This document shows positions 5,385 to 32,475 of a stretch of DNA of 32,475 bases, in pieces. The DNA is taken from positions 1 through 32,475 of the forward strand of contig JAGXAF010000012.1 in assembly GCA_018971675.1 (NCBI GenBank). Reading direction: 5' to 3'. The translations under genes and the position numbers were made by a program. This DNA is from Bradyrhizobium sp. (GTDB lineage: Bacteria; Pseudomonadota; Alphaproteobacteria; Rhizobiales; Xanthobacteraceae). A model generated the notes under the pieces. The model did no database searches, had not been told where the DNA came from, and saw only the letters and a program-made list of their open reading frames with translations. How positions within the stretch are numbered: position 1 is the first letter of the stretch; the number at the start of each line of letters is the position of its first letter.

Positions 5385-5589
5385 GATCGCCTCCTGCGTT
5401 CTTTTGCAGGATAACGACCGGCCGGAGAGCGGGTTCCCGCGTCCGCCACAAAATCGCCGTCACGCAACCGCGGGCGGCTTGCTTCAAGCGCCGGGAAAGC
5501 CAGCTTGCCAACCGGGTATCGACCACGCCGCCGATAACTCGATGGCGAACATGCCTTCCCCAGGCCGAAGCCTGTCATTTGACGTAATC

Positions 5590-7137
5590 TTACATCAAAA
5601 CCTCGATCAGCCGCGGTCCCTTTTCGGGAATCGCTTCCGAAAGCGCCTTGACGAAATCGTCGACATTGTCGGCCGAGCGCGCCGGCACGCCCATGCCCCG
5701 GGCGAGCGCCACGAAGTCGAGGGTCGGACGATCGATTTTCAACATATCCTGCGCGCGCTTGCCGGGTTCGCCGGCGCCGACGCCGTCGAATTCACCACGC
5801 AGGATCTGGTAGATGCGATTGGCGAACACGATGGTGACGACGTTGAGGCCCTCGCGCGCCTGCGTCCACAAGGACTGGATCGTGTACATCGCGCTGCCGT
5901 CGCCGACCATGCAGATCACCTTGCGATCCGGACAGGCGACCGCGGCCCCGGTCGCGACCGGCGTGGAAAATCCGATCGAGCCGCCCATGTTCTGCAGCCA
6001 GTCGTGGGGAGCCGCGGCCGCAGTTGGCGGAAAGAAGCCGCGGCCGGTGGTGATGGATTCGTCGACCACGATGGCATTTTCCGGGATCGCCATCGCGATC
6101 GCCTGCGCGATCGAGGCATGGGTCAGGGCGCCGGTCGGCTTCGAAAGCTCCATCAGCTTCTGCGGCTTGATGTCGGCAGGCCTGGCGCCGAGCGCACCCG
6201 CCAGCGCCGCCAGCGCCGCTGTGGAATTTTCGCCCCACGACGTCATGCGGTGAACCTCGCAGCCCTCGGGCTTGAGCATGCTCGGCTTGTTCGGATAGGC
6301 GAAGAACGCCACGGGGTCATTAGCCTCGACCAGCACGATATGCTTGAAGTCCTTCAGGATCGGCAGCGCCTGCTCGATCACATAGGGAATCCGGTCGATC
6401 GAGAAGCGGCCCTGCCCGCGCGCCATGCGCGGGTGATAGGTCTGACCCATCACCTTGCAGCCGGTCTTGCCGGCGATCTGCTGGGCGAGTTTCAGCGCCT
6501 GCTCCGTCAACGCACTGCCGGTCATCAGCACCAGGGTATGGGCGGGATCACCGCGCAGCACCCTGGCGGCCTCCTCGACCGCCTTCGGCGAATAGCTGAC
6601 GCGCTGACTATCGGCGGGCACCGGCGCGATGCCATCGGCCTCGTTCCAGGCGGTATCGGCGGGCAGGATCAGGGTCGCGATCTGCGGCGGCGAGCTTTTG
6701 GCGGCGGCGATCGCCGCGGCGCCATCGGCGGCAACCGATCTGGCGTCCGGCGAGGTGCGTACCCAGGCCGACATCGTCCGTGCCAGGCCCTCGATATCGG
6801 AGGTCAGCGGCGCATTGTAGTCGATGTGGTAGACCGCGTGCTGGCCGACGATATTGACGATGCCGGAATGGGCCTTCTTGGCATTGTGCAGGTTGGCAAG
6901 CCCGTTGGCGAGGCCCGGCCCGAGATGCAGCAGCGTCGAGGCGGGCGTCCCCCTCATGCGGAAATAGCCATCCGCGGCACCTGTGACCACCCCCTCGAAC
7001 AGGCCGAGCACGCAGCGCATGCCCTCGACCCGGTCCAGCGCGGCGACGAAATGCATCTCCGAGGTGCCCGGATTGGCAAAGCAGACGTCGACGCCACCGG
7101 CCACCAAAGTGCGCACCAGGCTTTCCGCGCCGTTCAT
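5590..7137 (-). CDS. Thiamine-pyrophosphate-dependent acetolactate synthase large subunit-like / benzoylformate decarboxylase-like protein
   Basis: 515 aa; VCFANPGTSEMHFVAALD, FEGVVTGAADGY, GPGLANGLANLHNA, and a TPP-binding region VGDGSAMYTIQSLWTQAREGLNVVTIVFANRIYQIL. Confidence 0.87.
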   Translation of the reverse strand: MNGAESLVRTLVAGGVDVCFANPGTSEMHFVAALDRVEGMRCVLGLFEGVVTGAADGYFRMRGTPASTLLHLGPGLANGLANLHNAKKAHSGIVNIVGQHAVYHIDYNAPLTSDIEGLARTMSAWVRTSPDARSVAADGAAAIAAAKSSPPQIATLILPADTAWNEADGIAPVPADSQRVSYSPKAVEEAARVLRGDPAHTLVLMTGSALTEQALKLAQQIAGKTGCKVMGQTYHPRMARGQGRFSIDRIPYVIEQALPILKDFKHIVLVEANDPVAFFAYPNKPSMLKPEGCEVHRMTSWGENSTAALAALAGALGARPADIKPQKLMELSKPTGALTHASIAQAIAMAIPENAIVVDESITTGRGFFPPTAAAAPHDWLQNMGGSIGFSTPVATGAAVACPDRKVICMVGDGSAMYTIQSLWTQAREGLNVVTIVFANRIYQILRGEFDGVGAGEPGKRAQDMLKIDRPTLDFVALARGMGVPARSADNVDDFVKALSEAIPEKGPRLIEVLM

Positions 7138-7374
7138 CGTTCAGCTCCCGATCGCGATATCTTTTCAGGCCACCGAAGATCAATCATTCCCGACGCGGTT
7201 CGTCAAAGGCCGATGGCACATTGCTGCCATCGCCAGAAATGATATCGCGCGTGCTTTTTTTGACGCAGAATTCGGAAATCGGCGCCCCGGTCGGCTTTCG
7301 CTATGGCCTTGGCTTGCGAAATCGCGGCAATATGCTCGTCTCATACCCAAGCCGGATTTTGCACGAGGAGAGCC

Positions 7375-7944
7375 ATGACCCGCGCCCTTGCGTTCCTGAT
7401 CGCAGCCGTCGCCCTGCTGGCCGCCAGTCATGCCCAGGCCGAGAGTTTCGATACGCGGGAGATCATGGGCAGCGGCCCCTATTTCGGAGCCGGCGGCTCA
7501 AGTCCGATTCCGCGCACCACGGTGTATTTCAACAGCCATTATGCCCCCGGCACCATTGTGGTGAACACCGCCGAGCGGCGGCTGTATCTCGTGCTGCCCA
7601 ACGGCCAGGCGCTGCGCTATGGCATCGGCGTCGGCCGCGACGGGTTTCGTTGGTCCGGCGTCCACAAGATCAGCGCCAAGAAGGAATGGCCAGGCTGGAC
7701 TCCGCCTTCGCAGATGCTGGCGCGGCGTCCAGATCTGCCGCGTCACATGGCGGGCGGCATCGACAATCCGCTGGGCGCGCGGGCGATATACCTCGGCTCG
7801 ACGCTGTACCGCATCCACGGCTCGAACGAGCCGGAAACGATTGGCCAGGCGGTGTCGTCCGGCTGCTTCCGCATGACCAATGACGACGTCACCGATCTCT
7901 ACAACCGCGTCTCGGTCGGCACTACTGTCGTGGTGAAGAACTAG
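7375..7944 (+). CDS. L,D-transpeptidase (ErfK/YbiS/YhnG family), secreted
   Basis: Signal peptide MTRALAFLIAAVALLAASHAQA; YkuD-domain motifs IHGSNEPETIGQAVSSGCFRMTNDDVTDLYNRV. Confidence 0.9.
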   Translation: MTRALAFLIAAVALLAASHAQAESFDTREIMGSGPYFGAGGSSPIPRTTVYFNSHYAPGTIVVNTAERRLYLVLPNGQALRYGIGVGRDGFRWSGVHKISAKKEWPGWTPPSQMLARRPDLPRHMAGGIDNPLGARAIYLGSTLYRIHGSNEPETIGQAVSSGCFRMTNDDVTDLYNRVSVGTTVVVKN

Positions 7945-8059
7945 CCGAAGCGCTGGGTTCTTCGGTGCTGTGCGGCATCATGTAAATTTGCGCGGCGGTG
8001 GCAGCCGTTTGCCGGATCGAGCCTTGCGGAGGCCCGCCCGCTGCGGCAGCGTTGACGCC

Positions 8060-8938
8060 ATGAGCCTCATTCGCTGGCCCTTCTGTGTCTTGCGAATACC
8101 GACGGTCCGGACCTTCACGGTCGTGCTGGCCGGCCTGGCGTTCGCCAGCGCGGTCCTGGCTCCGGCCGCGGCAGGTGAAATTCCCGCCATCGCATCGCGC
8201 CAGCGCGCCGAGAAGAAGAACTTTACCGACAGCGAGATCATCGAAGGCTTCCTGAATACCGCGTTCGGCGCCGAATATCATCTGGCCGGCCGCGTCGACC
8301 GCATCCGGAAATACGACGTCCCGGTGCGGGTGTTCGCCGTCGGCATCGATCGCGCGGATCGCAAGGTCCAACTCGCCAGGGTTGTCGCCGATATCGGCCG
8401 GCGCGTTCGGCATCTCGACATTGCGATGGCGTCCGGCAACGGCGAGGCCAATGTCGTGGTCGATCTGGTGCGGGACCGCGATCTGTCGCGCACCATCACC
8501 AAATTCTACGGCAGCGAACGCGCCAGGGAGATTCGTACCTCGCTCGATCCGCAATGCCTGTCCGGATTCCGCAAGAACGAAAGGTTTGAAATCGAGCATT
8601 CCGACGTGATCCTCACCGTCGACAGCGGCGACTTTGTCTTCCTCGACTGCGCCTATGAAGAGCTGCTGCAGTCCCTCGGACCGATCAACGACACCAGTTC
8701 GGTGCCCTGGACCATGTTCAACGACGAGGTATCGATGGGATTTTTCGACGTCTACGATCAGTACATTCTGAATTTGCTGTACGATCCCCGCATCAAGGCC
8801 GGCATGACCGTGCAGGAGGTCAAGGCGGTACTGCCCGAGGTGCTCGCCGACGTGCGGGCCTGGGTCGCCAAGGAAAATAATCTGCAAAATAATTTGCAAA
8901 ATAATCCGCAAAACAATTTGCCGGAGCAACGACCATGA
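8060..8938 (+). CDS. DUF2927-like exported protein
   Basis: Signal-like N-terminus (RTFTVVLAGLAFASAVLAPAAAG) then IIEGFLNTAFGAEYHLAGRVDRIRKYDVPVRVFAVG...; internal ATG 8060 preferred over 7970. Family assignment from memory. Confidence 0.7.
   Translation: MSLIRWPFCVLRIPTVRTFTVVLAGLAFASAVLAPAAAGEIPAIASRQRAEKKNFTDSEIIEGFLNTAFGAEYHLAGRVDRIRKYDVPVRVFAVGIDRADRKVQLARVVADIGRRVRHLDIAMASGNGEANVVVDLVRDRDLSRTITKFYGSERAREIRTSLDPQCLSGFRKNERFEIEHSDVILTVDSGDFVFLDCAYEELLQSLGPINDTSSVPWTMFNDEVSMGFFDVYDQYILNLLYDPRIKAGMTVQEVKAVLPEVLADVRAWVAKENNLQNNLQNNPQNNLPEQRP
8874..8921 (+). repeat. 12-bp x 4 coding tandem repeat (aaaataatYtgc) encoding NNLQ-type units
   Basis: aaaataatctgc / aaaataatttgc / aaaataatccgc / aaaacaatttgc; protein NNLQ-NNLQ-NNPQ-NNLP at the C-terminus of the DUF2927-like ORF. 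Confidence 0.9.
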
Positions 8939-9032
8939 CGCGCCGCCGCATTGGCGAACGCGCGCGCCTCCGCGTTCTCGCAGGGCGCGATGCGTCCGGC
9001 GCACTCCCTATCCGGTGGACAAAATCGGCTTT

Positions 9033-9275
9033 TTAGCGGATGGACGCTGATAGCCGGGCCAGAAGCTGCCGAAGCCGGGCATTCTCCTCGCGCAGCAAAT
9101 AAACTTCCGAAACTTCGCTGTGATGCTCGTGATGTTCCTTATCGTCACGACGTGCCGGCCGATCCTCGCGAAGCGCAGTTTGAATCCGCGCAAGAACGTC
9201 GTCGATCGGCTCGTCCGCCCAAAGTGACGGTTCGCTGCGCCGGCGCCTGTGATGCTTCGGAAAGTCTGTTCGCAT
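9033..9275 (-). CDS. Small hypothetical protein with C-terminal coiled-coil-like segment
   Basis: 80 aa MRTDFPKHHRRRRSEPSLWADEPIDDVLARIQTALREDRPARRDDKEHHEHHSEVSEVYLLREENARLRQLLARLSASIR; leucine-rich charged C-terminus. Confidence 0.45.
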   Translation of the reverse strand: MRTDFPKHHRRRRSEPSLWADEPIDDVLARIQTALREDRPARRDDKEHHEHHSEVSEVYLLREENARLRQLLARLSASIR

Positions 9276-9430
9276 GACTGATACTCCAATCCAGATAGCC
9301 GAACGTGCCCCCAGCCGCTCGCTTCGCGGGGCCAGCGTGAATCGATTCGGCAGGCAAATTTGCGACTGAAATTGGAACCGGATTGCGCCAATGCGGCGTC
9401 ATTGCGGCGCCGCATCCGCGCGCATTGGCT

Positions 9431-9526
9431 CTACATGACCAATGCTGCCAATTGATAAAGCGCGTAGCTGGCTTCCAGTCCGAGCAGAACAAGTCCCGCG
9501 ATCATCACGTAGAAACCAAAATGCAT
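9431..9526 (-). CDS. Possible 31-aa single-TM microprotein
   Basis: MHFGFYVMIAGLVLLGLEASYALYQLAALVM*; one hydrophobic helix; no strong SD seen. Confidence 0.3.
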   Translation of the reverse strand: MHFGFYVMIAGLVLLGLEASYALYQLAALVM

Positions 9527-9729
9527 GGAGGACTTGCAACCGATCGCGTGTTGTGGCGCGCGGATCGCGCCGGCATTTTGAACCAAACTCGATGCACGGC
9601 GGAAAACATCATCGCCCGGCGAAATATCTCGCCGGCACGAAGAACAGAAAGCTTCCGCCGCCGCGGAAGGGATGCGTTCGTCGCGAACCTTTTCGAATGA
9701 AGGTCTCCCGACGGCAGCTTCCTGTCTGT

Positions 9730-9828
9730 TCACGTGCCGTGGAAAATCCTGATTCCCCACAGCACGACGACGATGGCCGATATCAGGGTGGCCGCCGTCA
9801 ATACACCTTCTATGGAAGCGACTCTCAT
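9730..9828 (-). CDS. Possible 32-aa single-TM microprotein
   Basis: MRVASIEGVLTAATLISAIVVVLWGIRIFHGT*; preceded by GGAGAG (gcGGAGAGtggtATG). Confidence 0.4.
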   Translation of the reverse strand: MRVASIEGVLTAATLISAIVVVLWGIRIFHGT

Positions 9829-10071
9829 ACCACTCTCCGCTTCCCAGCCCCGCCAGCGGTCTAGATGATTCGTCGATTCCGCGGCAATCGTCCCGGCGCC
9901 CCCGCCGCGAACGTTGACCGCGGCTGTGCCCTCAGCGCCACATCTTCCGCGATCGTCGGTCAGATTTTCCCGGCGGCCGCCGCCTTGCAGATGGTCTTGA
10001 GCGAGCGCCACTCCTCCGCCGTCAGGAACGACGGGGTTCATGGACCGAAAGGCAATGCGGCGCGCGGCTTT

Positions 10072-11244
10072 TTACGCCGACTTCTCGAACAGTTCCCGCC
10101 CGATCAGCATGCGCCGGATTTCGCTGGTGCCGGCGCCGATCTCGTAGAGCTTGGCGTCGCGCAGCAGGCGGCCGGTCGGATAATCGTTGATATAGCCGTT
10201 GCCGCCGAGCAACTGGATGGCGTCGAGCGCGCATTGCGTCGCCCTCTCGGACGCATAGAGAATGGCGCCGGCGGCATCCTCGCGCGTGGTCTCGCCGCGG
10301 TCACAGGCCTTGGCGACGGCGTAAACATAGGCGCGCGACGCGTTCATCGTGGTGTACATGTCGGCAAGCTTGCCCTGCACCAGCTGAAACGCGCCGATCG
10401 GCTGGCCGAACTGCTTGCGCTCGTGCACATAGGGCATCACCACGTCCATGCAGGCCTGCATGATGCCGAGCGGCCCGGCGGCGAGCACCGCGCGCTCATA
10501 ATCGAGGCCCGACATCAGCACATTGACGCCGCGACCAACCTCGCTCAGCACATTCTCCTCCGGCACCTCGCAATTGTCGAATACCAGTTCGCAGGTGTCC
10601 GAGCCGCGCATGCCGAGCTTGTCGAGCTTTTGCGCGGTGGAGAATCCCTTCATGCCTTTTTCGACGAGGAATGCCGTGATGCCGCGCGGGCCGGCCGAGG
10701 CGTCGGTCTTGGCGTAGACCACCAGCGCGTCGGCGACCGGGCCGTTGGTGATCCACATCTTGCTGCCGTTGATGACATAACGGTCGCCCTTCTTGTCGGC
10801 GCGGGTTGTCATCGACACCACATCGGAGCCCGAATTCGGCTCCGACATCGCCAACGACCCGACATGTTCGCCGGAAATCAGCTTCGGCAGATATTTCCGC
10901 TTCTGGCTTTCGTTGCCGTTGCGACGGATCTGGTTGACGCACAGATTGGAGTGCGCGCCGTAGGACAGCCCCACCGCCGCCGAGGCGCGCGATATCTCCT
11001 CGAGCGCAATGCAGTGCTCGAGATAGCCTAGGCCCGAACCGCCATATTCCTCCTCGACGGTGATGCCATGCAGGCCCAACGCGCCGAGCTTCGGCCAGAG
11101 GTCGCGGGGGAATTGATTGCTTTTGTCGATTTCGGCGGCGCGAGGCGCGATCTCGTTGCTGGAAAAGTCCTGCACGGTTTCGCGGATCGCGTCGGCGGTC
11201 TCGCCGAGATCGAAGTTGAACATCCGATGCGCGTTTGGGATCAT
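10072..11244 (-). CDS. Acyl-CoA dehydrogenase, isovaleryl-CoA dehydrogenase-like
   Basis: [70 protein letters not shown]...[15 protein letters not shown]...[43 protein letters not shown]; start set at ATG 11244. Confidence 0.9.
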
Positions 11245-11555
11245 GGTGGCCTCCGGACAAGCATGCGCCCTGGGGCGCACAGCCTTATGCGTTGCAAATA
11301 AGCTTGTCACGGGCCGGCTGGCCTGAGAAGGGTCTGAATTTGGTCCGCTGCGCCGCGCCAATTTTGCGGCCGTCATGCTCCGCGAACAGCGGTGTATCGC
11401 GTATTCCGGGGCATTTCGGCCCTGATCAAAGCCTGAAACGCCGGATCGGACGGTGAAGCCGGACGATGACGCCTTGCTGCGGCGACGCAACCCTTGCCCT
11501 GCCGGGCGCAAGAGGATGTAATTCGCAAAAAGGCGCTCTTTCGGGATCAGTTACG

Positions 11556-12830
11556 ATGACCGTCCAGACCACAATGAAAACCGACAAAGCCGAGCTGCAG
11601 CGCCTCGCCCGCGAACAGGCCTATGCCACGCCCCTGAAGGATTTTCATCCCGGCGCGCCCGCGCTGTTCCAGAACGATACGCTGTGGCCATGGTTCGAGC
11701 GGCTGCGCAAGGAAGAGCCGGTGCACTACTGCGCGAACTCGCCGATCGAGCCCTATTGGTCGGTGACCAAATACAACGACATCATGCATGTCGACACCAG
11801 CCACCATCTCTTTTCCTCGGATGTCAGCCTCGGCGGCATTTCGATCCGCGACGTCCCGCCGGGCTATGACTGGCCGAGCTTTATCACGATGGACCAGCCG
11901 CAGCATGCCGCCCAGCGCAAAACCGTCTCGCCGATGTTCACGCCCGACCATCTCGACCAGCTTGCGGTCTTGATTCGCGAGCGCGCCGGCAAGGTGCTCG
12001 ATACGCTCCCGCGGAACGAGACCTTCGATTTCGTCGACCGCGTGTCGATCGAACTGACCACGCAGATGCTGGCGACCCTGTTCGATTTCCCCTGGGAGGA
12101 ACGCCGCAAGCTTACCCGCTGGTCCGATGTCTCGACCGCGCTGCCGAAAAGCATGATCGTCGAATCCGCCGAACAGCGTCGCGCCGAGATGGACGAATGC
12201 GCGGCCTACTTCACCAGGCTGTGGAACGAGCGCGTCAACGCTCCTCCGCGCTACGATCTGATCTCGATGATGGCGCACAGCGATGCGACGCGATACATGA
12301 GTCCCGACAATCTGATGGGCAACATCATCCTGTTGATCGTCGGCGGCAACGACACCACGCGCAACACCATGAGCGGATCGGTGCTGGCGCTGAACGAGAA
12401 CCCCGACCAGTACAGGAAATTGCGCGAAAACCCCGACCTGATCGACTCGATGGTGCCGGAAGTCATCCGCTGGCAGACGCCGCTGGCGCATATGAGGCGA
12501 ACCGCGCGTGCCGACACCGAACTCGGCGGCAAGATCATTCGCAAGGGCGATCGCGTGGTGATGTGGTACGTCTCCGGCAATCGGGACGAAGAGGTGATCG
12601 AGAAGCCCAACGAGTTCATCATCGACCGCGCCCGGCCCCGCATCCATCTGTCGTTCGGATTCGGTGTCCACCGCTGCGTCGGCATGCGGCTCGCCGAATT
12701 GCAGCTCAAGATCGTCTGGCAGGAAATGCTGAAAAGGTTTGCCAAAATCGAGGTCGTCGGCGAGCCGAAGCGGGTCTATTCCAGCTTCGTCAAGGGCTAC
12801 GAGTCGCTGCCGGTCCGGATTTCGGCTTAA
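11556..12830 (+). CDS. Cytochrome P450, CYP153-like (alkane/fatty-acid omega-hydroxylase type)
   Basis: I-helix LIVGGNDTTRNTMSG, ExxR region PEVIRWQTPLAHMRRTA, heme motif HLSFGFGVHRCVGMRLAELQLKIVW, C-terminus VVGEPKRVYSSFVKGYESLPVRI; resembles CYP153 from memory. Start set at 11556 (MTVQTTMKTDKAELQ). Confidence 0.88.
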   Translation: MTVQTTMKTDKAELQRLAREQAYATPLKDFHPGAPALFQNDTLWPWFERLRKEEPVHYCANSPIEPYWSVTKYNDIMHVDTSHHLFSSDVSLGGISIRDVPPGYDWPSFITMDQPQHAAQRKTVSPMFTPDHLDQLAVLIRERAGKVLDTLPRNETFDFVDRVSIELTTQMLATLFDFPWEERRKLTRWSDVSTALPKSMIVESAEQRRAEMDECAAYFTRLWNERVNAPPRYDLISMMAHSDATRYMSPDNLMGNIILLIVGGNDTTRNTMSGSVLALNENPDQYRKLRENPDLIDSMVPEVIRWQTPLAHMRRTARADTELGGKIIRKGDRVVMWYVSGNRDEEVIEKPNEFIIDRARPRIHLSFGFGVHRCVGMRLAELQLKIVWQEMLKRFAKIEVVGEPKRVYSSFVKGYESLPVRISA

Positions 12831-12968
12831 AGCAGACCAGCACTGTCAATTCGCGGCTTGACCTTTCAGGCGGTTCAACGCCATGACAGCGCAGGATTTC
12901 GCTTGCGCCTGAGGCCGGTATCGTCAGCGTTCCCTGGTCGACCCGGGCCCCGACCTTCCAGAGCTCCG

Positions 12969-14135
12969 ATGACCCATACCGAGCACGACGATCATGCCGA
13001 CATCCGCGACGCCATCGCCAAGCTGTGCGCGCAATTTCCCGGCGAATACTGGCGCAAGCTCGATCGCGAAATGGCCTATCCCGGCGAATTCGTCGATGCG
13101 CTGACCAAGGCCGGCTATCTGTCGGTGCTGATCCCGGAAGAGTATGGCGGCGCCGGTTTGAAACTATCCGCCGCCACCGCGATCCTCGAGGAAATCCACC
13201 GCGCCGGCTGCAATGCCGGCGCCTGCCACGCCCAGATGTACACCATGGGTACCGTGCTGCGGCACGGCAATGACAAGCAAAAGGCCAGATATCTGCCGAA
13301 AATCGCCAGCGGCGAATTGCGGCTGCAGGCGTTCGGTGTCACCGAGCCGACCAGCGGCACCGACACGGCATCGCTGAAGACCGTTGCACGGCGCGACGGC
13401 GATGACGGCTACATCGTCAACGGCCAGAAGATCTGGACCAGCCGCGCGCAATATTCCGATCTGATGGTGCTGTTGGCGCGCACCACGCCGAAAGACAAGG
13501 TGAGGAAACGCACCGACGGCCTGTCGGTATTCCTGGTCGACATGCGCGAAGCAAAAGGCCACGGGCTCGAAATCCGTCCGATCCGCACCATGATGAACCA
13601 CTCCACCACCGAGGTGTTCTTCACGGACATGCGGGTGCCGGCCGAAAACCTGATCGGCGAGGAAGGCAAGGGCTTTCGCTATATCCTCTCCGGCATGAAC
13701 GCCGAGCGCATCCTGATCGCGGCGGAATCGATCGGCGACGCCAAATGGTTCATCGCCAGGGCCACCGCCTACGCCAGGGAGCGCATGGTGTTCGGCCGCC
13801 CGATCGGCCAGAACCAGGGCATCCAGTTCCCGATCGCCAAGGCCTATGCGGCGATGCGCGCGGCCGAATTGATGGTGAAGGAAGCCACCCGCAAATACGA
13901 GGCCGGCCTCGAATGCGGCGCCGAAGCCAACATGGCCAAGATGCTGGCGGCGGACGCGGCCTGGGATGCAGCCAATGCCTGCGTGCAGACCTTTGGCGGT
14001 TTTGCCTTCGCCGAGGAATACGATATCGAGCGCAAGTTTCGCGAGACCCGGCTCTATCAGGTGGCGCCGATCTCGACCAATCTGATCCTGTCGTTTGTGG
14101 CCGAGCACGTGCTGGGCATGCCGCGCTCCTATTGA
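12969..14135 (+). CDS. Acyl-CoA dehydrogenase family protein
   Basis: MTHTEHDDHADIRDAIAKLCAQFPGEYWRKLDRE...AFGVTEPTSGTDTASLKT...QTFGGFAFAEEYDIERKFRETRLYQVAPISTNLILSFVAEHVLGMPRSY. Confidence 0.9.
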   Translation: MTHTEHDDHADIRDAIAKLCAQFPGEYWRKLDREMAYPGEFVDALTKAGYLSVLIPEEYGGAGLKLSAATAILEEIHRAGCNAGACHAQMYTMGTVLRHGNDKQKARYLPKIASGELRLQAFGVTEPTSGTDTASLKTVARRDGDDGYIVNGQKIWTSRAQYSDLMVLLARTTPKDKVRKRTDGLSVFLVDMREAKGHGLEIRPIRTMMNHSTTEVFFTDMRVPAENLIGEEGKGFRYILSGMNAERILIAAESIGDAKWFIARATAYARERMVFGRPIGQNQGIQFPIAKAYAAMRAAELMVKEATRKYEAGLECGAEANMAKMLAADAAWDAANACVQTFGGFAFAEEYDIERKFRETRLYQVAPISTNLILSFVAEHVLGMPRSY

Positions 14136-14141
14136 GAAGCA

Positions 14142-15275
14142 ATGATGCTGCCGCTTGAAGGGATAATTGTCGTCGCCGTCGAGCAGGCGGTTGCCGCCCC
14201 TTTCTGCAGTTCGCGGCTGGCGGATGCCGGCGCTCATGTCATCAAGATCGAGCGGCCGGAAGGCGATTTTGCCCGCGGCTATGATGCGGCCGCCAAGGGA
14301 CAGAGCAGCTATTTCGTCTGGCTCAACCGTGGCAAGGATTCCGTCGTCGTCGACCTCGCGACCAGGGAGGGTCGCGCCGCCCTCGAGCGATTGATCGCGG
14401 GCGCCGACGTGCTGCTGCAAAACCTCAAACCCGGCTCGATGGACAAGCTCGGTTTCTCGCGCGCGCGGCTGACCCTGGATTATCCGCGGCTGATCTGCTG
14501 CACCATTACGGGCTATGGCGATGACGGCCCCTACGCTCACCGCAAGGCCTATGACCTCTTGATCCAGGCTGAGAGCGGGCTCGCCTCGATCACCGGCGGA
14601 CCCGAAGGCCCTTCGCGCGTCGGGGTGTCGATCGTCGATGTCGCAACCGGCGCCACCGCGCATGCCTCGATCCTGGAAGCGCTGATCGCACGCAGTCGCA
14701 ACGGCAAGGGCGCCGACATCCGGATATCCATGTTCGACGTCATGGCCGACTGGCTCACGGTGCCCCTGCTCAATGCCGAGGCCGGCAACCCGCCGCAGCG
14801 CATGGGCCTCGCCCATCCCTCGATCGCGCCCTATGGCGTGTTCCGCTCGAAGGACGGCAGAGACATCCTGATCTCGATCCAGAGCGAGCGCGAGTGGAAG
14901 AAATTATGCGCCGAGGTACTGGATCAGCCGGACCTGCCCAACGATCCCAGGTTCGCCAACATGGTCGAGCGGGTCCGCAACCGCACGCTCACCGACCAGA
15001 CCGTCGGCGACCGTTTTGCGAGGTTGTCGCGCGATGAATTGCTGAAACGGCTGTCGGATGCCGACATTGCGTTCGCCGAGGTCAACACCATGGCCGACCT
15101 CGCGATACATCCGCATCTGCGGCGCATCGAGGTCGGTACGCCGAACGGAAAGGTCAGCTATCCCGCGCCCGCCGCGATTTGTGTCGGCGAACCGCGCCAC
15201 TATGCCGCCGTGCCCGGCATTGGCGACCACAAGGATACCACGAAAAGACTTCTCGCCGAGCGCAAGACATCATGA
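14142..15275 (+). CDS. CaiB/BaiF (class III) CoA-transferase, copy A
   Basis: MLPLEGIIVVAVEQAVAAPFCSSRLADAGAHVIKIERPEGDFARGYD...GYGDDGPYAHRKAYDLLIQAESGLASITGGPEGPSRVGVSIVDVATG; 4-nt ATGA overlap with the next gene. Confidence 0.92.
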   Translation: MMLPLEGIIVVAVEQAVAAPFCSSRLADAGAHVIKIERPEGDFARGYDAAAKGQSSYFVWLNRGKDSVVVDLATREGRAALERLIAGADVLLQNLKPGSMDKLGFSRARLTLDYPRLICCTITGYGDDGPYAHRKAYDLLIQAESGLASITGGPEGPSRVGVSIVDVATGATAHASILEALIARSRNGKGADIRISMFDVMADWLTVPLLNAEAGNPPQRMGLAHPSIAPYGVFRSKDGRDILISIQSEREWKKLCAEVLDQPDLPNDPRFANMVERVRNRTLTDQTVGDRFARLSRDELLKRLSDADIAFAEVNTMADLAIHPHLRRIEVGTPNGKVSYPAPAAICVGEPRHYAAVPGIGDHKDTTKRLLAERKTS

Positions 15276-16129
15276 CCGAAAAACTCGACATCGATCATCT
15301 GCGCCAATGGATCGGCCGCACCACCGAAGCTTCCGACATCGTCACCGCGCAACTGGTCAAAGGCCTGCGCGCGACGCTGTTTCAGGAGATCGGCGAGCCG
15401 AAGCCGGGCGACGCCGCGCCGTTCACGGTTCATTGGTGTCTGGCCCAACCGGTGGCTCCGATGTCGATGCTGGGCCAGGACGGTCATCCGACCCGCGGCG
15501 GTTTCCTGCCGCCGGTGCCGCTGCCTCGCCGGATGTGGGCGGGCGGCGAGCTCGAATTTGTCGATGCGCTGCGCGTCGGTGACGAGGCCCGGCGAACCTC
15601 GCGGATATCAGACGTCACCATGAAGACCGGCAGCACCGGCATGCTGTGCTTCGTTTCCGTCGAACATGTGGTGACGACCTCGCGCGGAATCGCGATCCGC
15701 GAGCGGCAGGACATCGTTTATCGCGACATCTCGGGCTCGCCGCAGCCTGCGTCGGCCAAGCCACCCCCGCCGCCCGTCGCAAAGCACCGCGAGACCCACA
15801 TGGCCGATCCGGTGCTGCTGTTTCGCTATTCGGCGCTGACCTTCAACGGCCACCGCATCCATTACGACCGGCGCTACGTCACCGAGGTCGAGGGCTATCC
15901 GGGCCTGATCGTCCACGGCCCGCTGATCGCGACGCTGCTGCTCGACCTGCTGCGCCGCGAGCAGCCCGACGCCGAGGTGGCCACCTTCCGCTTCAAGGCC
16001 GTGCGGCCGACCTTCGACCTGCACGCCTTCCACGTCCACGGCGCGCCGCAGCCCGACGGTTCGGTGCGGCTGTGGGCCGCCGACCACGAGGGCTGGCTGA
16101 CGATGGACGCCAGCGCCACGCTGCGCTGA
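15272..16129 (+). CDS. MaoC/FAS1-like (hot-dog) enoyl-CoA hydratase, mesaconyl-CoA-hydratase-like; putative hybrid gene
   Basis: MTEKLDIDHLRQWIGRTTEASDIVTAQLVKGLRATLF...VLLFRYSALTFNGHRIHYDRRYVTEVEGYPGLIVHGPLIATLLLDLLRR...; GC3 and codon usage change inside the ORF near 15,830-15,900. Confidence 0.88.
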   Translation: MTEKLDIDHLRQWIGRTTEASDIVTAQLVKGLRATLFQEIGEPKPGDAAPFTVHWCLAQPVAPMSMLGQDGHPTRGGFLPPVPLPRRMWAGGELEFVDALRVGDEARRTSRISDVTMKTGSTGMLCFVSVEHVVTTSRGIAIRERQDIVYRDISGSPQPASAKPPPPPVAKHRETHMADPVLLFRYSALTFNGHRIHYDRRYVTEVEGYPGLIVHGPLIATLLLDLLRREQPDAEVATFRFKAVRPTFDLHAFHVHGAPQPDGSVRLWAADHEGWLTMDASATLR

Positions 16130-16140
16130 GGAGCCGATCC

Positions 16141-17337
16141 ATGCAACCGCTGAAGGGCATCACCGTCGTCACGCTCGAGCACGCGATCGCCGCGCCGTTC
16201 GCGACGCGCCAGCTCGCCGACCTCGGTGCCCGCGTGATCAAGATCGAGCGCCCGGGCAGCGGCGACTTCGCGCGCGGCTACGACGAACGCGTGCGCGGCC
16301 TGGCCTCGCATTTCGTCTGGACGAACCGCTCAAAGGAAAGCCTGACGCTCGACGTCAAGCACCCGCAGGCGGCGGCGCTGCTGCGCCGGCTGATCATCGA
16401 GCAGGCCGATGTCGTCGTGCAGAACCTCGCGCCCGGCGCGGCGGCGCGGCTGGGTCTGTCGTTCGAGGCGCTCGCGGCCGAGAAGCCCGGCCTCATCGTC
16501 TGCGACATCTCGGGCTACGGCGACGACCGCCATCGCCCCGGCCCCTACCGCGACAAGAAGGCCTACGACCTGCTCGTGCAGAGCGAGGCCGGTTTCGTCT
16601 CCGTCACCGGCACGCCCGACGAGCCGAGCAAGGCCGGCCCGTCGATCGCCGACATCGCCGCCGGCATGTACGCCTACACCAACATCCTCGCGGCGCTGAT
16701 GCAGCGGCGCATCGACGGCCGCGGCCGCCGCATCGACCTCTCGATGCTCGAGTCGCTGGGCGAATGGATGAGCTATCCGCTGTACTACGCCTTCGACGGC
16801 GCGCCGCCGCCGCCGCGCACCGGCGCCAGCCACGCGACGATCTACCCCTACGGCCCGTTCCCGGCCGGCGACGGCAGGACCGTGATGCTGGGCCTGCAGA
16901 ACGAGCGCGAATGGCAGGCCTTCTGCGCCCAGGTGCTGCTGCAGCCGGCGCTGGCGCAGGACCCGCGCTACACCAGCAATTCGAAGCGCAGCGCCGCGCG
17001 CGTCGCGCTGCGCGCGATCATCGTCGAGGCCTTCGCGACGCTGAGCGCCGCCGAGGTGCTGGCGCGGCTCGATGCGGCGCAGATCGCGAACGCCCAGGTC
17101 AACACGATGGCCGAGGTCTGGCAGCACCCGCAACTGGCCGCGCGCGGCCGCTGGCGCGAGGTCGAGACCGCCGTCGGCCGGGTGCCGGCCCTGCTGCCGC
17201 CCGGCAGCTGGGACGACGGCGACGGCCCGCGCCTGGACGCGGTGCCGGCGCTGGGCCAGCACACCGAGGCGATCCTGGGTGCGCTGGGGCTGGACGCTGC
17301 GGCCATCGCCGCACTGCGTGCCGCCGAGGCGGTCTGA
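16141..17337 (+). CDS. CaiB/BaiF (class III) CoA-transferase, copy B
   Basis: MQPLKGITVVTLEHAIAAPFATRQLADLGARVIKIERPGSGDFARGYD...; aligns end to end with copy A (14142-15275). Confidence 0.92.
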   Translation: MQPLKGITVVTLEHAIAAPFATRQLADLGARVIKIERPGSGDFARGYDERVRGLASHFVWTNRSKESLTLDVKHPQAAALLRRLIIEQADVVVQNLAPGAAARLGLSFEALAAEKPGLIVCDISGYGDDRHRPGPYRDKKAYDLLVQSEAGFVSVTGTPDEPSKAGPSIADIAAGMYAYTNILAALMQRRIDGRGRRIDLSMLESLGEWMSYPLYYAFDGAPPPPRTGASHATIYPYGPFPAGDGRTVMLGLQNEREWQAFCAQVLLQPALAQDPRYTSNSKRSAARVALRAIIVEAFATLSAAEVLARLDAAQIANAQVNTMAEVWQHPQLAARGRWREVETAVGRVPALLPPGSWDDGDGPRLDAVPALGQHTEAILGALGLDAAAIAALRAAEAV

Positions 17338-17352
17338 GGAGGCTGAAGTGAA

Positions 17353-17430
17353 TCCCCCCCGAAGCGCCTTCGGCGCTCCCCCCCGGGGGGGCGACGCCAG
17401 CGGCCCGGCAGAGCCGATTCCGCGGCGTCC
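17353..17430. repeat. GC-rich multi-hairpin intergenic repeat (Burkholderiales/Comamonadaceae-type)
   Basis: AGCGCC-TTC-GGCGCT hairpin, CCCCCCCGGGGGGG perfect 14-nt palindrome (17378-17391), then GACGCCaGCGG...CCGCGGCGTC enclosing CGGC-AGA-GCCG. Confidence 0.75.
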
Positions 17431-17486
17431 GCTTGACCCATGGATTCATGCGTCGAGGGTGGCCACGGCTGCCATGGAGAACTGAG

Positions 17487-18302
17487 ATGAGCACCGCCCC
17501 ACGCACCTACCTGTTCGTCCCCGGCGACCGGCCCGACCGCTTCGACAAGGCGCTGGCCGCCGGCGCCGATGCCGTCGTGCTCGATCTCGAGGACGCCGTC
17601 GCGCCGGCCGCCAAGGCGCGCGCCCGCGACGCCGTCGCCGAGCGCCTGCACAGCGCCAGCGACGCCGACCACCAGCGCCTCGTCGTGCGCATCAACGACG
17701 AAGCGACGCCCGAGTTCGAGGCCGACCTGGCGATGCTCGCCCGCACCCACGCCGCGCAGGTGATGCTGCCCAAGGCCGAGCGCGTCGCCACGGTCGCGCG
17801 CGTGCGCGCGGCCTGCCCCGGCATCGCCGTGATCGCGCTGATCGAGACGGCGCGCGGCGTGCTCAACGCCGAGGCGCTGGCCGCGGCCGACGGCGTGCAG
17901 CGGCTGGCCTTCGGCACCATCGACTACGCGCTCGACCTCGGCCTGAGTGGCGACCCGGCCGGCTTCGACCCGGCCGCGAACCGGCTCGCGCTCGCCTCGC
18001 GCGCCGCCGGGCTGGCGGCGCCTGTCGCCGGCGTCACGCCCGAGGTCGCCGACCCGGCGCCGCTGCGGGCCGACCTGCAGCGCGCCCGCGCCCATGGCTA
18101 CACCGCCAAGCTCTGCATCCACCCGAAACAGGTGGCGCTGGTGCACGAAGCGCTGCAGCCGAGCGCCGCCGAGATCGACTGGGCGCGGCGCGTGATCGCC
18201 GCCGCCGAGGGCGCCGCCGGCGCCGTGCAGGTCGACGGCCGCATGGTCGACAAGCCCGTGCTGCAGCGCGCCCAGGCCTTGCTCGCCCGCGCGGCGCGCT
18301 GA
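17487..18302 (+). CDS. CitE/HpcH-HpaI family CoA-ester lyase
   Basis: MSTAPRTYLFVPGDRPDRFDKALAAGADAVVLDLEDAVAPAAKARARDAV...VMLPKAE...IALIETARGVLNAEALAAADGVQRLAFGTIDYALDLG...AKLCIHPKQVALVHEAL. Confidence 0.93.
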   Translation: MSTAPRTYLFVPGDRPDRFDKALAAGADAVVLDLEDAVAPAAKARARDAVAERLHSASDADHQRLVVRINDEATPEFEADLAMLARTHAAQVMLPKAERVATVARVRAACPGIAVIALIETARGVLNAEALAAADGVQRLAFGTIDYALDLGLSGDPAGFDPAANRLALASRAAGLAAPVAGVTPEVADPAPLRADLQRARAHGYTAKLCIHPKQVALVHEALQPSAAEIDWARRVIAAAEGAAGAVQVDGRMVDKPVLQRAQALLARAAR

Positions 18303-18340
18303 ACACCGCCACCATTCCATCCCTTCCCGAGGACACCGCC

Positions 18341-19687
18341 TTGCCTTCCACGATCATCGACTCCGCCATCTTCGGCGACATCTTCAGCACCGCCGCGATG
18401 CGGCGCGTCTGGTCCGACGAGAACCGCACCGCGAAATACGTCGCCATCGAATCGGCGCTGGCCCAGGTGCAGGGCGCTCTCGGGCTGATCCCGGCCGAGG
18501 CCGCGGCGGAAATCGTGCGCGTCTGCCACATCGAGAACATCGACCTCGTCAAGCTCAAGGCACAGACCGAGCGCATCGGCTACCCCATCCTCGGCGTCGT
18601 CTCGCAGATCAACGCGCTGTGCCGCGACAAGCTGGGCGAGTTCTGCCACTGGGGCGCGACGACGCAGGACATCACCGACACCGCCACCGTGCTGCAGATC
18701 CGCGAGGCGCTGGAGATCGTCGACGGCGAGCTCAAGGCGCTCGGCGACGCGCTGGCCAAGCTCGCGCGCGAGCACCGGCTGACGCCGATGATCGGCCGCA
18801 GCAACCTGCAGCAGGCGGTGCCGGTGACCTTCGGCTACAAGATGGCCGGGCTGCTCGCCGCCGTGGCGCGCCACCGCGAACGGCTGGCGCAGATCCGGCC
18901 GCGCGTGCTGCAAGGCGAGTTCGCCGGCGCCGCCGGCACCCTGGCCTCGCTCGAGACCGGGGCGATGGAGACGCAGGCCGGCCTCTGCGCCGAACTCGGC
19001 CTGGCGCAGCCGGTGATCGCCTGGCACACGGTGCGCGACACCATCGCCGAGGTCGGCACCTTCCTCGGCCTCGTCGGCGGCACGCTGGGCAAGATCAGCA
19101 TGGACGTGAAGCTGATGATGCAGACGGAGGTCGGCGAGGTCTACGAGCCTTATGCGCACGGCCGCGGTTCGAGCAGCACGATGCCGCAGAAGCGCAACCC
19201 GATCTCGAGCTGCTACATCCACGCCCAGATCTCGGTCCTGCGCCAGCATGCGGCGGCGATGCTCGACGCGATGGTCGCCGACCACGAGCGCTCGACGGGG
19301 CCCTGGGAGATCGAATGGATCGTGCTGCCCGAGGCCTTCTGCCTGCTCGCCGGCGCGCTCGCGCAGTCGCGCGCGGTGATCGAGGGGCTGGAGGTCGACA
19401 CCCGGCGCATGCGCGCGAACCTCGACATGACGCATGGCCTCGTCGTCTCCGAGGCGGTGATGATGGGCTTGGCGCCCTACATCGGCCGCGAAACCGCACA
19501 CGACCTGGTCTACGACATCTGCCGCCTCGCGATCCAGCAGGAGCGCCCGCTGCTCGAGCTGCTGGCCGGGAACGCCGAGATCACCAAACACGTGACGCGC
19601 GAGCAGCTCGCGGCGATGTGCGACCCGGCGGCCTACCTCGGCCAGTCGGGGCTGATGGTCGACCGGGTGCTCGCGCGCTGGGGATGA
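18341..19687 (+). CDS. Fumarase/aspartase superfamily lyase (adenylosuccinate lyase / 3-carboxymuconate cycloisomerase-like)
   Basis: 448 aa; HWGATTQDITDTA, superfamily signature GSSSTMPQKRNPISS, TTG start at 18341. Substrate not assignable. Confidence 0.88.
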   Translation: MPSTIIDSAIFGDIFSTAAMRRVWSDENRTAKYVAIESALAQVQGALGLIPAEAAAEIVRVCHIENIDLVKLKAQTERIGYPILGVVSQINALCRDKLGEFCHWGATTQDITDTATVLQIREALEIVDGELKALGDALAKLAREHRLTPMIGRSNLQQAVPVTFGYKMAGLLAAVARHRERLAQIRPRVLQGEFAGAAGTLASLETGAMETQAGLCAELGLAQPVIAWHTVRDTIAEVGTFLGLVGGTLGKISMDVKLMMQTEVGEVYEPYAHGRGSSSTMPQKRNPISSCYIHAQISVLRQHAAAMLDAMVADHERSTGPWEIEWIVLPEAFCLLAGALAQSRAVIEGLEVDTRRMRANLDMTHGLVVSEAVMMGLAPYIGRETAHDLVYDICRLAIQQERPLLELLAGNAEITKHVTREQLAAMCDPAAYLGQSGLMVDRVLARWG

Positions 19688-19715
19688 AAAGCGCCCCCAG
19701 ACCCGCCGCTGCGCG

Positions 19716-20654
19716 TCAGGCCCCCCGCGGGGGCGCGGGGCGCCCGGATGCCGACTTGCGCTTGCCCTTCATCTCGCCGAAGAAGGCGTAGAGCTGCTGC
19801 GCTGCCGGCGACAGCGTGCGGCCGCGGCGGCGGATCAGGCCGATGCGGCGCGTCACCACCGGATCGGCCAGCGCCACGCTGACGAGCAGCGGATGGTCGG
19901 CCGCCGGCATCGCCAGCGACGGCACCGCGGCCACGCCCAGGCCCGCTTCGACGAGGCCGAGCATGGTGGTCACATGCTGGGCCTCGTAGATCGCCTGCGG
20001 CCGGCCTTCCAGCCCCGACAGCGCCTGGTCGAGCAGCAGCCGGTTGCCGGACGACCTGGCGACCGAGATGTTGTCGTAGGCGGCCAGCTCGGTCCACGTC
20101 ACCTTGCGCTTCTTCGCCAGCGGGTGGTCGCGCCGGCAGGCGGCGACGAAGCGCTCCTCCAGCAGCGGCTCGAACTCGATCTCGGGCTCCTGGCTGCCCA
20201 TGAAGTTGAGGCCGAAATCGGCCTCGCCGCGGGTCACGGCCGCGAGCACCTCGTTCGCGCTCGCGTCGTGCATCTTGACCCGGATGCGCGGATAGCGCTC
20301 GTGGTAGCGGCGGATCACCTGCGAGACGAAGTAGTAGACGGTCGAGGGCACGCAGGCGATCGTCACCTCGCCCATGCGCGTCGCCGCGAAGCCGCGAATG
20401 CCGAGCAGCGCGCCGTCGAGCTCGTCGAGCACCTGCTGCACGGTGCGCGCGAAGTCGCGCCCCACCGCCGTCAGCTGCACCTTGCGCGTCGTGCGCTCGA
20501 GCAGGCGCACGCCCAGCGCCTGCTCGAGCTTGTCGATGCGCCGGCTGAACGCCGGCTGCGAGATGTGCACCGCGTCGGCGGCCTTGCGGAAGTTGCCCAT
20601 CTCGGCCACGGCGCGAAAGGCGTGCAGGTCGTTGAGGTCGAAGGCGGCGGCCAT
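19716..20654 (-). CDS. LysR-family transcriptional regulator
   Basis: FDLNDLHAFRAVAEMGNFRKAADAVHISQPAFSRRIDKLEQALGVRLLERTTRKVQLTAVG; N-terminal wHTH and substrate-binding domain. Confidence 0.94.
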   Translation of the reverse strand: MAAAFDLNDLHAFRAVAEMGNFRKAADAVHISQPAFSRRIDKLEQALGVRLLERTTRKVQLTAVGRDFARTVQQVLDELDGALLGIRGFAATRMGEVTIACVPSTVYYFVSQVIRRYHERYPRIRVKMHDASANEVLAAVTRGEADFGLNFMGSQEPEIEFEPLLEERFVAACRRDHPLAKKRKVTWTELAAYDNISVARSSGNRLLLDQALSGLEGRPQAIYEAQHVTTMLGLVEAGLGVAAVPSLAMPAADHPLLVSVALADPVVTRRIGLIRRRGRTLSPAAQQLYAFFGEMKGKRKSASGRPAPPRGA

Positions 20655-20775
20655 GGCGGATCTCCGGTCCCTGCAGCGCAGGCAGTGCGGTGATTTTGCG
20701 CCATCAGGTGCATCAATCGTTCGTATCCATGCAAGTGCGCGACCGCCGCCGTCGAGCCCCGGGCGCGGCCGGCCA

Positions 20776-21240
20776 TCAGGCGGGCTTGACGGCCGCAGCG
20801 CGATCCTCGAGCGCGACGGCGCCGGTCTCCAGCATCGACTTGAGGTTGGAAATGATCATGGGCCAGCCGCCCGAGACCGCCCGGATGAGCTTCGATGGTT
20901 CGCGTTCGATGGTGTGGGTGATGGAGAGCTTCATGGCGCTTCCGGCAGATTCCATTTCCATCGTGCAGAGCGAATCGCCCTCGGCCTTGAGCTCGGGATT
21001 GTCCTGGTGCTGCCAGCGTATGACGAGGCGCCGCGGCGGCTCGGACTCGATGATCTCGCCGGCATCGCAGACGCTGCCGTCGGCGCGGACCATCTTCCAG
21101 GGCGACCCGGCCGTCCATGCGCTTTCGCAATGCATGCCGAACCAGTACTGCCGCATGAACGCCTTGTCGGTCAATGCCGACCAGAGTTTTTCGGGCGTCG
21201 TGCGGATATACGTGACGTAGACAAAAGCGGACTTAGTCAT
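20776..21240 (-). CDS. SRPBCC/AHSA1-domain protein
   Basis: FVYVTYIRTTPEKLWSALTDKAFMRQYWFGMHCESAWTAGSPWKMVRADGSVCDAGEIIESEPPRRLVIRWQHQ. Confidence 0.9.
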   Translation of the reverse strand: MTKSAFVYVTYIRTTPEKLWSALTDKAFMRQYWFGMHCESAWTAGSPWKMVRADGSVCDAGEIIESEPPRRLVIRWQHQDNPELKAEGDSLCTMEMESAGSAMKLSITHTIEREPSKLIRAVSGGWPMIISNLKSMLETGAVALEDRAAAVKPA

Positions 21241-21568
21241 CAGGGTTCTCCAGTCGTCGTTTCAGTTTGTCGAGCGCCTTCAGGCGCGGCCTTTCGAACT
21301 TCGCGATCCAGCGCTCGTAGAGGTCCTGCAGCGGCACAGGATTGAGGAAATGCATCTTTTCGCGCCCACGCCAGACGACCGCGACGAGGTTGGCTGCCTC
21401 GAGCAAGCCCAGGTGCTGCGTCACGCCCTGCCGCGTCATGTCCAGGTGCTCGCACAGTTCGCTCAGCGTGCGGCCATCGTGGGCGTGCAACAGATCCAGC
21501 AGCCGGCGTCGACTGGGATCGGCAAGCGCCTTGAACAGCAGGTCGGGATCGTCTGCGGGGTCGGTCAT
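21233..21568 (-). CDS. ArsR-family (HTH) transcriptional regulator
   Basis: DPDLLFKALADPSRRRLLDLLHAHDGRTLSELCEHLDMTRQGVTQHLGLLEAANLVAVVWRGREKMHFLNPVPLQDLYERWI; overlaps the AHSA1 start by 8 nt. Confidence 0.92.
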   Translation of the reverse strand: MTDPADDPDLLFKALADPSRRRLLDLLHAHDGRTLSELCEHLDMTRQGVTQHLGLLEAANLVAVVWRGREKMHFLNPVPLQDLYERWIAKFERPRLKALDKLKRRLENPDD

Positions 21569-21847
21569 CGCTCGTCATATGCAAGTGATCAGTTGCATGA
21601 ACTATAGGCAACTATTTACTTGCATGTCAAGTCCCGCGCGAATTCGGCGAGCGGCCGGCCACGCGCCATCCGGGTTTCGGGTCCGGCAGCCGCTTGGCGA
21701 CCGGCCGACCCAGCGGACGATCGCCTGGGTGCCCGCGGCGCAGCGCGGGCGCGGCGCCGATGTCCGTTGCCGCCGGGCCCGCGCATCTGCATCGAGGTGC
21801 GGTAATGTGCCGCCCTCGATGCCGCCGCTGCGGTGCAGGAGATCGCC

Positions 21848-22204
21848 ATGGAATTCGTTCTGACATTTCATCAGCCCGCCGAGGTCTACGAGACCAATGC
21901 CGACCCGGTGCGGGGGGCCGCGCCGATGCAGGCCTGGCGCCAGTACATGGACGCGATGCAGGCCGCGGGCGTGCTGCGCGGCGGCAATCGCCTCGACGCC
22001 TTCGGCGCCACCAGCGTGCGCGTGCGCGACGGCCGGCGCCAGGTCCAGGACGGGCCCTACGCCGAAACCAAGGACCTGCTCGGCGGCTATGTCGTCGTCG
22101 AGGTGCCGTCGCTCGACGAAGCGCTCAAATGGGCCGAACGCAGCCCCAGCTCGGCGGTCGGCAGCACCGAGGTCTGGCCGGTGATGACGATGGCGCCGCG
22201 GTGA
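21848..22204 (+). CDS. YCII-related (DGPF) domain protein
   Basis: MEFVLTFHQPAEVYETNADP...VRVRDGRRQVQDGPYAETKDLLGGYVVVEVPSLDEALKWAERSPSSAVGSTEVWPVMTM; canonical DGPYAETKDLLGGY. Confidence 0.92.
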   Translation: MEFVLTFHQPAEVYETNADPVRGAAPMQAWRQYMDAMQAAGVLRGGNRLDAFGATSVRVRDGRRQVQDGPYAETKDLLGGYVVVEVPSLDEALKWAERSPSSAVGSTEVWPVMTMAPR

Positions 22205-23418
22205 CGGCGGCGCGCGCGGCGGCGGACGCCGCGCGTCACAGCTACGGCCGGCTGCTGTCGTGGCTGGCCTGGCAATGGCGCGACATCGCCGCGGCCGAGG
22301 ACGCGCTGGCGGAGGCCTTCGCGCAGGCACTGACGCGCTGGCCCCTGGACGGCGTGCCCACGGCGCCCGACGCCTGGCTGCTGACGACGGCGCGCCGCCG
22401 CCTGCTGATCGCGGCGCGGCGCCAACGCCTCGCCGACGATCCGACGCTCACCGTGCTCTGGCCTTGCGAGCAGGACGCCCAACCCGAGGCGCTGGCGATC
22501 CCGGACCATCGCCTGCGGCTGATGCTCGTCTGCGCGCATCCGGCGATCGATGCCGGGGTGCGCAGCGCATTGATGCTGCAGACCGTCCTCGGCCTGGATG
22601 CGGCGAGCATCGCCAGCGCCTTCCTCGTCAAGCCCGAGGCCATGACCAAGCGGCTGGTGCGGGCGAAGCGCAAGATCAAGACGGCCGGCATCCGCTTCGA
22701 GGAACCCGAGCCGGCCGACTGGCCGGCGCGGCTGGACGCCGTGCTCGAGGCGATCTACGCCGCCTACACGCTGCACTGGGGCCATGCCGAGGAAGCGACG
22801 GGACGGCAATTGGCCGACGAGGCGATCTACCTCGCGCGATTGACGAGTTCGCTGCGGCCCGGCGAGCCCGAGGCGCTGGGGCTGACCGCGCTGCTGTCGT
22901 ACGCGCAGGCACGCCGGCCGGCGCAGCGCGATGCGCGGGGCGGTTTCATTCCGTTGGACGAGCAGGACACCCAGCGGTGGGACGGCGACCTGTGGGCCCA
23001 GGCCGATGCCCTGCTGGCGGCGGCCGCCGCGCGCGGTCGGCCCGGCCCCTACCAGCTCGAAGCGGCAATCCAGGCCGCGCATATGGAAGGCCTGAGGAGC
23101 CATGCCGTCCCCTGGGCCGACCTGCAGCGGCTCTACGAAGGCCTGCAGGCGCTTTCGCCGACGCTGGGCGCGGCGATCGGCCATGCCATCGCCGTCGCCC
23201 ACGCGGCCGACGACCCGCAAGCGGGTCTGCGCCTGCTCGACGCCCTCGAGGCGAGCCGCGTCGCCGACCATGCCCCCTGGTGGGCCGCCCGCGCGCGCCT
23301 GCTGGCCTGGGCCGGGTTCGGCGAGGCCGCGGCGCAGGCCTACCGGCGCGCCGGTGCCTTGACGGGCGATCCGGCGGTACGCGAGTGGCTGATCGGAAAG
23401 CTGGAAGCGCTCGGTTGA
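22201..23418 (+). CDS. RNA polymerase sigma factor, ECF42-like, with long C-terminal (DUF6596/TPR-like) extension
   Basis: GTG start overlapping the YCII stop (GTGA); WRDIAAAEDALAEAFAQALTRWPLDGVPTAPDAWLLTTARRRLLIAARR...MLVCAHPAIDAGVRSALMLQTVLGLDAASIASAFLV...LNLI-like helical C-terminus. Confidence 0.9.
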   Translation: MTAARAAADAARHSYGRLLSWLAWQWRDIAAAEDALAEAFAQALTRWPLDGVPTAPDAWLLTTARRRLLIAARRQRLADDPTLTVLWPCEQDAQPEALAIPDHRLRLMLVCAHPAIDAGVRSALMLQTVLGLDAASIASAFLVKPEAMTKRLVRAKRKIKTAGIRFEEPEPADWPARLDAVLEAIYAAYTLHWGHAEEATGRQLADEAIYLARLTSSLRPGEPEALGLTALLSYAQARRPAQRDARGGFIPLDEQDTQRWDGDLWAQADALLAAAAARGRPGPYQLEAAIQAAHMEGLRSHAVPWADLQRLYEGLQALSPTLGAAIGHAIAVAHAADDPQAGLRLLDALEASRVADHAPWWAARARLLAWAGFGEAAAQAYRRAGALTGDPAVREWLIGKLEALG

Positions 23419-23721
23419 CAGCGATCGGGACCGCCGTTCACGGGCCGACCGCCCTCATGCCACTCGATCGTCCATGGCCGGTCGCCGCTCAGAGGCGAAC
23501 GGGCCCATCCAGGGCCGGCGCGATCGGGCGTCAGTTCATAGATGTCCACAAAATATCCGAAATTTGGACATGGATCGAGAACATCCTCCGGCCCTCGCCC
23601 CTGCTCGGCGGGTGCCGGGCGGGCGTTCTGATTCCCTCGGGGACAGCGGGATCGGTTGTTGTGCAGGCACCGATCCCGAGTCCGGACTTTGTGGCGAGCT
23701 TGCGTCGTTCGAGCGCGGTGG

Positions 23722-24924
<1,203 letters not shown>

Positions 24925-24954
24925 GGTCGATTCTTCTCCCGGGATCCCGCTTGA

Positions 24955-29366: not shown

Positions 29367-29371
29367 GGCCT

Positions 29372-30799
<1,428 letters not shown>

Positions 30800-30825: not shown

Positions 30826-32475
<1,650 letters not shown>

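Follow-up and report, generated by a model that had tools for sequence, protein, structure and literature searches.

A contig binned with Bradyrhizobium is probably a cross-class chimera joined within a conserved stretch of a hydratase gene

The window analysed here (32,475 bp), which makes up the whole or almost the whole of contig C64 in a Bradyrhizobium bin (G000), is very probably a chimeric contig in which an assembler joined DNA of two bacterial classes at a conserved stretch, a reading to which we give a probability of about 0.93. A metagenome assembler would have connected reads from an uncultured Bradyrhizobium, covering 1 to ~15,811-15,870, with Burkholderiales reads, covering ~15,812-15,870 to 32,475, by passing through a stretch (15812-15870) that is near-identical in two distantly related genes for MaoC-type hydratases, and the joined contig would then have been binned with Bradyrhizobium. 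Because such a join runs along aligned homologous codons, the reading frame stays open and the product looks like a fusion gene. The first-pass annotation had offered two readings, an in-frame hybrid gene or an assembler join through a shared k-mer; these alternatives were well framed, and the evidence favours the assembler join strongly, if indirectly. We infer that the joining step took place in the assembler and not in the cell, since the junction is confined to a single contig of a fragmented bin and seen in no Bradyrhizobium relative, the right half of the contig is foreign to the bin as sampled, and a cross-class identity of 59 bases, seen among sampled orthologs, lies exactly at the switch.

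Table 1. Features of the window, with positions counted from its first base.
Feature	Position	Strand	Basis or remark
Bradyrhizobium part of the contig	1-15811		Pfam; collinearity; composition equal to that of the bin
MaoC/FAS1-like hydratase ORF, probably chimeric	15272-16129	+	N-terminal part Bradyrhizobium, C-terminal part Burkholderiales
Junction interval	15812-15870	+	59 bases conserved across classes; encodes the hydratase motif FRYSALTFNGHRIHYD
Burkholderiales part of the contig	15871-32475		Pfam; collinearity and identity with G380, G064 and G061
Interspersed repeat of Burkholderiales genomes	17344-17440		Single copy in G000, in this contig only

The hydratase ORF was described from the start as intact, and its frame is indeed open throughout, with 285 aa and no internal stop. 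Pfam assigns it a FAS1-like dehydratase domain (PF13452, E 1e-12); MaoC also matches, at residues 180-245, but stays below its cut-off. The two ends of the gene have opposite nearest relatives. Over 15272-15811, DNA identity is 91.2% to the closest Bradyrhizobium relative found for the hydratase (G219) and 53.9% to the closest Burkholderiales relative (G380); over 15926-16126 the corresponding values are 47.9% and 91.5%. In BLASTN comparisons with orthologs, Bradyrhizobium matches begin at or near base 1 of the gene and mostly end at base 654 (window 15925). Burkholderiales matches reach the end of the gene, and their strongest piece often begins only at gene base 530-541 (window 15801-15812). 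In trees, residues 1-179 pair with G219 inside Bradyrhizobium with support of 100/99. Residues 200-285 fall with support of 97/91 into a nine-row, mostly Burkholderiales set (Burkholderiaceae, Caenimonas, Variovorax, Skermanella and the plasmid copy of one Bradyrhizobium), outside of which the native Bradyrhizobium genes are placed. The lineage thus switches within the hydratase gene, as had been proposed from its codons and gene content, and a comparison of the two halves taken separately, suggested at that stage, did not return the same lineage for both. A search of the rest of the G000 bin found neither the gene's native 3′ end nor a second hydratase copy.

A codon-aligned likelihood comparison with orthologs places the switch at 15810-15871. 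This overlaps the conserved segment within 15780-15920 to which it had been assigned by eye, and whose motif FRYSALTFNGHRIHYD we take to be the catalytic segment of MaoC-type hydratases. Together with 15482-15541, the junction interval is the most conserved DNA of the gene. In the window it is identical at 59/59 bases to Bradyrhizobium orthologs L012 and L020 and 95% identical to a Burkholderiales ortholog (L204), and the nearest sampled relatives on either side deviate from it at a few of the 59 positions. Diagnostic bases for Bradyrhizobium lie, for example, at 15797-15800 and 15862, and for Burkholderiales at 15926-15928 and 15932; at 15871-15873 the window deviates from all Bradyrhizobium. 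The source genomes are absent from the collections (the closest are 91% identical per side in the gene), so that exact sharing was shown between other orthologs. In a set of 63 alpha and 35 beta-grouped hydratase orthologs, exact alpha-beta sharing reaches 59 bases at most, in a run that covers exactly the junction interval; this run is shared by L053 (alpha) and L070, the latter labelled Pseudomonadota and counted as beta-grouped from its place in the tree. The earlier suggestion that unrelated genomes could share an identical stretch at this point therefore has a concrete instance, and such identity among sampled orthologs makes a join through a shared k-mer feasible. Exact runs of 27 bases or more occur somewhere in the gene in 25% of alpha-beta ortholog pairs. 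A de Bruijn graph assembler with the usual short-read k could therefore merge two such organisms at the junction. The position of the junction speaks against a random join; it is equally the likeliest site for true recombination and so does not discriminate between the two.

The bin to which the contig was assigned groups with Bradyrhizobium genomes and comprises 3.45 Mb in 313 contigs, 83.2% complete with 3.9% contamination, a size and fragmentation which suggest that it is a metagenome bin. All compositional measures change at one shared point in the window, and the step persists to the end of the contig. Overall GC is 0.619 in the left part versus 0.700 in the right part. Within the hydratase ORF, GC3 rises from 0.796 (15272-15829) to 0.960 (15830-16129); the three genes directly before the ORF have the same GC3 as its left part (~0.80). 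By gene, GC3 is about 0.65-0.85 on the left and, in clearly framed genes, mostly 0.84-0.96 on the right. The first-pass annotation had reported many A/T third positions before about 15,830 and codons ending almost always in G or C from about 15,900 to 32,475. The step itself is real and holds to the end of the contig, but "many" was an overstatement since the left half still has a GC3 of 80%. A tetranucleotide step, which had been proposed as a check alongside GC3, is also present: measured against 20 other bin contigs, the distance is 0.25-0.34 for the left side and 0.64-0.77, two to three times as large, for the right, against a leave-one-out range of 0.19-0.39 within the bin itself. The log-ratio of fourth-order Markov models (bin versus Burkholderiales) grows steadily from position 1 to a maximum of +496.5 at 15830 and has dropped to +156.9 where the window ends, the right half scoring -20 per kb. 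By the same ratio, all of 40 other bin contigs (395 kb of the 3.45 Mb) lie on the side of the bin, with no negative 3-kb stretch among them; one of the 40, C6, has its bases withheld.

The repeat at 17344-17440 provides a second, genomic mark of the right half. Its unit of ~80-95 bases folds strongly (folding z-score -2.5) and matches no Rfam family. G066, G061 and G064, all Burkholderiales, carry 42, 10 and 6 copies, and three other Burkholderiales genomes carry 2, 1 and 0; two Bradyrhizobium genomes contain none. It is probably a REP-like element of some Burkholderiales. Composition and this repeat both mark the right half as foreign to the bin as sampled.

Gene content and gene order divide in the same way. 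The left part encodes a sulfate permease, an SDR, a TPP enzyme, an L,D-transpeptidase, acyl-CoA dehydrogenases, a P450 and a CoA-transferase III by Pfam, and also holds the N-terminal 180 residues of the hydratase; 5591-15925 is piecewise collinear with Bradyrhizobium loci at 76-92% DNA identity. The right part encodes the C-terminal part of the hydratase, a CoA-transferase III, an HpcH/CitE-like lyase, a PcaB/adenylosuccinate-lyase-like protein, LysR, AHSA1 and ArsR-like proteins, a thiolase, an enoyl-CoA hydratase, a 3-hydroxyacyl-CoA dehydrogenase, a box-type ferredoxin reductase, a PaaA/PaaC-like (boxB-like) protein and an enoyl-CoA hydratase-like (boxC-like) protein. Here 15494-20733 is collinear with G380 at 84-89% identity, and 28084-32475 matches G064, G061 and others at 83-87%. 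In Bradyrhizobium the order is an own acyl-CoA dehydrogenase and CoA-transferase followed by the hydratase; in the Burkholderiales relatives a complete hydratase directly precedes the right-hand CoA-transferase and the right-hand genes that follow. CoA-transferase III genes flank the hydratase ORF on both sides, and apart from a second, distant CoA-transferase III gene the hydratase is the contact of the two gene contexts. The initial recognition of Bradyrhizobium-like genes on the left and Burkholderiales-like genes on the right is thus borne out by Pfam, DNA identity, collinearity and trees. Within the right part, 20734-23700 (AHSA1-like, ArsR-like and sigma-factor-like genes) is collinear with none of the relatives examined, which may be a normal difference in gene order or a second join. 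With matches of 72% and 67%, genes of the bin's own (G000:C127:9260-12219) correspond to the right-hand boxB-like and boxC-like genes, which makes the set at 28086-32406 a redundant foreign copy.

The main competitor of an assembler join is a recent inter-class homologous recombination at the 59-bp stretch, which would have created an in-frame hybrid of the native hydratase (first 180 residues) and an incoming Burkholderiales one (last 85-100) and imported at least 16.6 kb, with the donor's own hydratase operon and box-type benzoyl-CoA genes. We consider this unlikely. The perfectly open frame is a counterpoint to the assembler join, as a true recombinant would show it too, and recombination would likewise be favoured at the switch site. 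A further counterpoint is that Burkholderiales-type operons do occur in Bradyrhizobium: at least five genomes (G257, G141, G088, G131 and G132) carry a second hydratase and CoA-transferase copy with 70-73% identity to the window. That of G257 (L163, G257:C2) is carried by a plasmid of 900 kb in Bradyrhizobium sp. CB82 (NZ_CP121651.1), in an operon of hydratase, CoA-transferase, CoA ester lyase and adenylosuccinate-lyase-like genes of Burkholderiales-Azospirillaceae type, and pairs with Skermanella in the tree; comparable operons are found on Azospirillum and Variovorax plasmids. The other four copies (L164-L167) are related to one another, distinct from the native gene and form a tree group of their own. 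However, these second copies have their own N-terminal half, and their identity to the window compares with 84-89% for G380, on which ground we rejected recombination with a resident copy of this type as the source. The operon does transfer into Bradyrhizobium, but whole and from another source. An origin from a plasmid was rejected as well, the plasmid records compared matching 15272-20700 at only about 71-77%. Against a genuine hybrid there is also the search of 272 Bradyrhizobium genomes (G000 and 271 others) with a junction-spanning query: among the matches listed, only G000 crosses the junction (0/271 in the others), and matches to native genes stop at about 15921-15977. The other lineage's gene is only ~48-57% identical over 15272-15811 and 15926-16126, which is very low for homologous recombination. 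Moreover, the foreign part has undergone no amelioration, keeping Burkholderiales composition to the right end, and the Burkholderiales repeat that it carries occurs nowhere else in the bin. Neither a tRNA anywhere in the window nor, at the junction, any RNA gene that could serve as an integration site was found; no mobile-element family was matched among the window proteins scanned (Pfam), and no second boundary lies within the contig, which ends before one could come into view. Homeologous recombination is known to give mosaic genes with a breakpoint in a conserved segment, as here; unlike in such genes, the donors would come from separate classes, there is a single visible boundary, the foreign part extends to the end of the contig and no relative shares it.

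Two further explanations are far less probable still. The window could belong to a single organism, an older core adjoining a high-GC island with an ordinary compositional shift and no switch within the gene. The continuous hydratase frame would fit this, but two gene parts with opposite nearest relatives at strong support, and the step of every compositional measure at the same point, leave it hardly any room; a uniform single-lineage gene with a compositional gradient was ruled out by the split in nearest relatives in both trees and identities. A laboratory chimera, in which templates were joined during PCR or whole-genome amplification and then faithfully assembled, would leave the same sequence picture, including a join at a conserved stretch. 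Such a rare molecule would not normally outcompete two abundant parents in assembly, however, and as nothing in the data requires it we regard it as highly improbable. Contigs that chimerically join species are a known outcome when metagenomes are assembled from short reads. In one benchmark, megahit gave 22.15 chimeric contigs per genome and SPAdes 2.63 (PMC11261854), while the authors of GUNC call misassembly rarer than mis-binning (PMC8201837). The contig resembles described interspecies chimeric contigs (PMC8201837, PMC11261854, PMC8171044) in that its non-overlapping parts match different lineages, that it is joined at a stretch conserved between them and that its bin is fragmented. It differs from typical cases in that the join lies inside a protein gene, keeps the frame open and resembles a fusion gene, which is expected where the shared stretch is homologous and codon-aligned.

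The apparent hybrid gene is thus most likely a warning of contamination and not new biology. In its PF13452 match, its MaoC match below the cut-off and its adjoining CoA-transferase III, the predicted protein resembles MaoC/PF13452 hydratases encoded beside CaiB-type CoA-transferases; unlike these, it is probably a composite created by artefact, and the two parental proteins are the real ones. Left as it is, the contig would mislead annotation by suggesting a fusion enzyme that is probably not real, would credit Burkholderiales box-type genes to a Bradyrhizobium with boxB/boxC-like genes of its own on C127 and would provide a false case of inter-class transfer. It would also illustrate clearly how a perfectly open chimeric ORF can result when an assembler makes its join within a conserved motif. 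Positions 15,871-32,475 should leave the Bradyrhizobium bin, and the predicted fusion protein should not be counted as real.

Two relatives of the hydratase locus show irregularities of their own. G219 (L162 6526-6527) is missing 1.9 kb corresponding to 13235-15130 of the window, where the acyl-CoA dehydrogenase ends and most of the CoA-transferase lies; since other relatives are collinear with the window over this interval, the gap is a deletion or misassembly in G219. The hydratase ortholog at G028:C223:69532-70435 (L103) matches in two pieces, residues 1-140 and 143-283, with ~60 bases between them, which suggests a frame disruption or an insertion.
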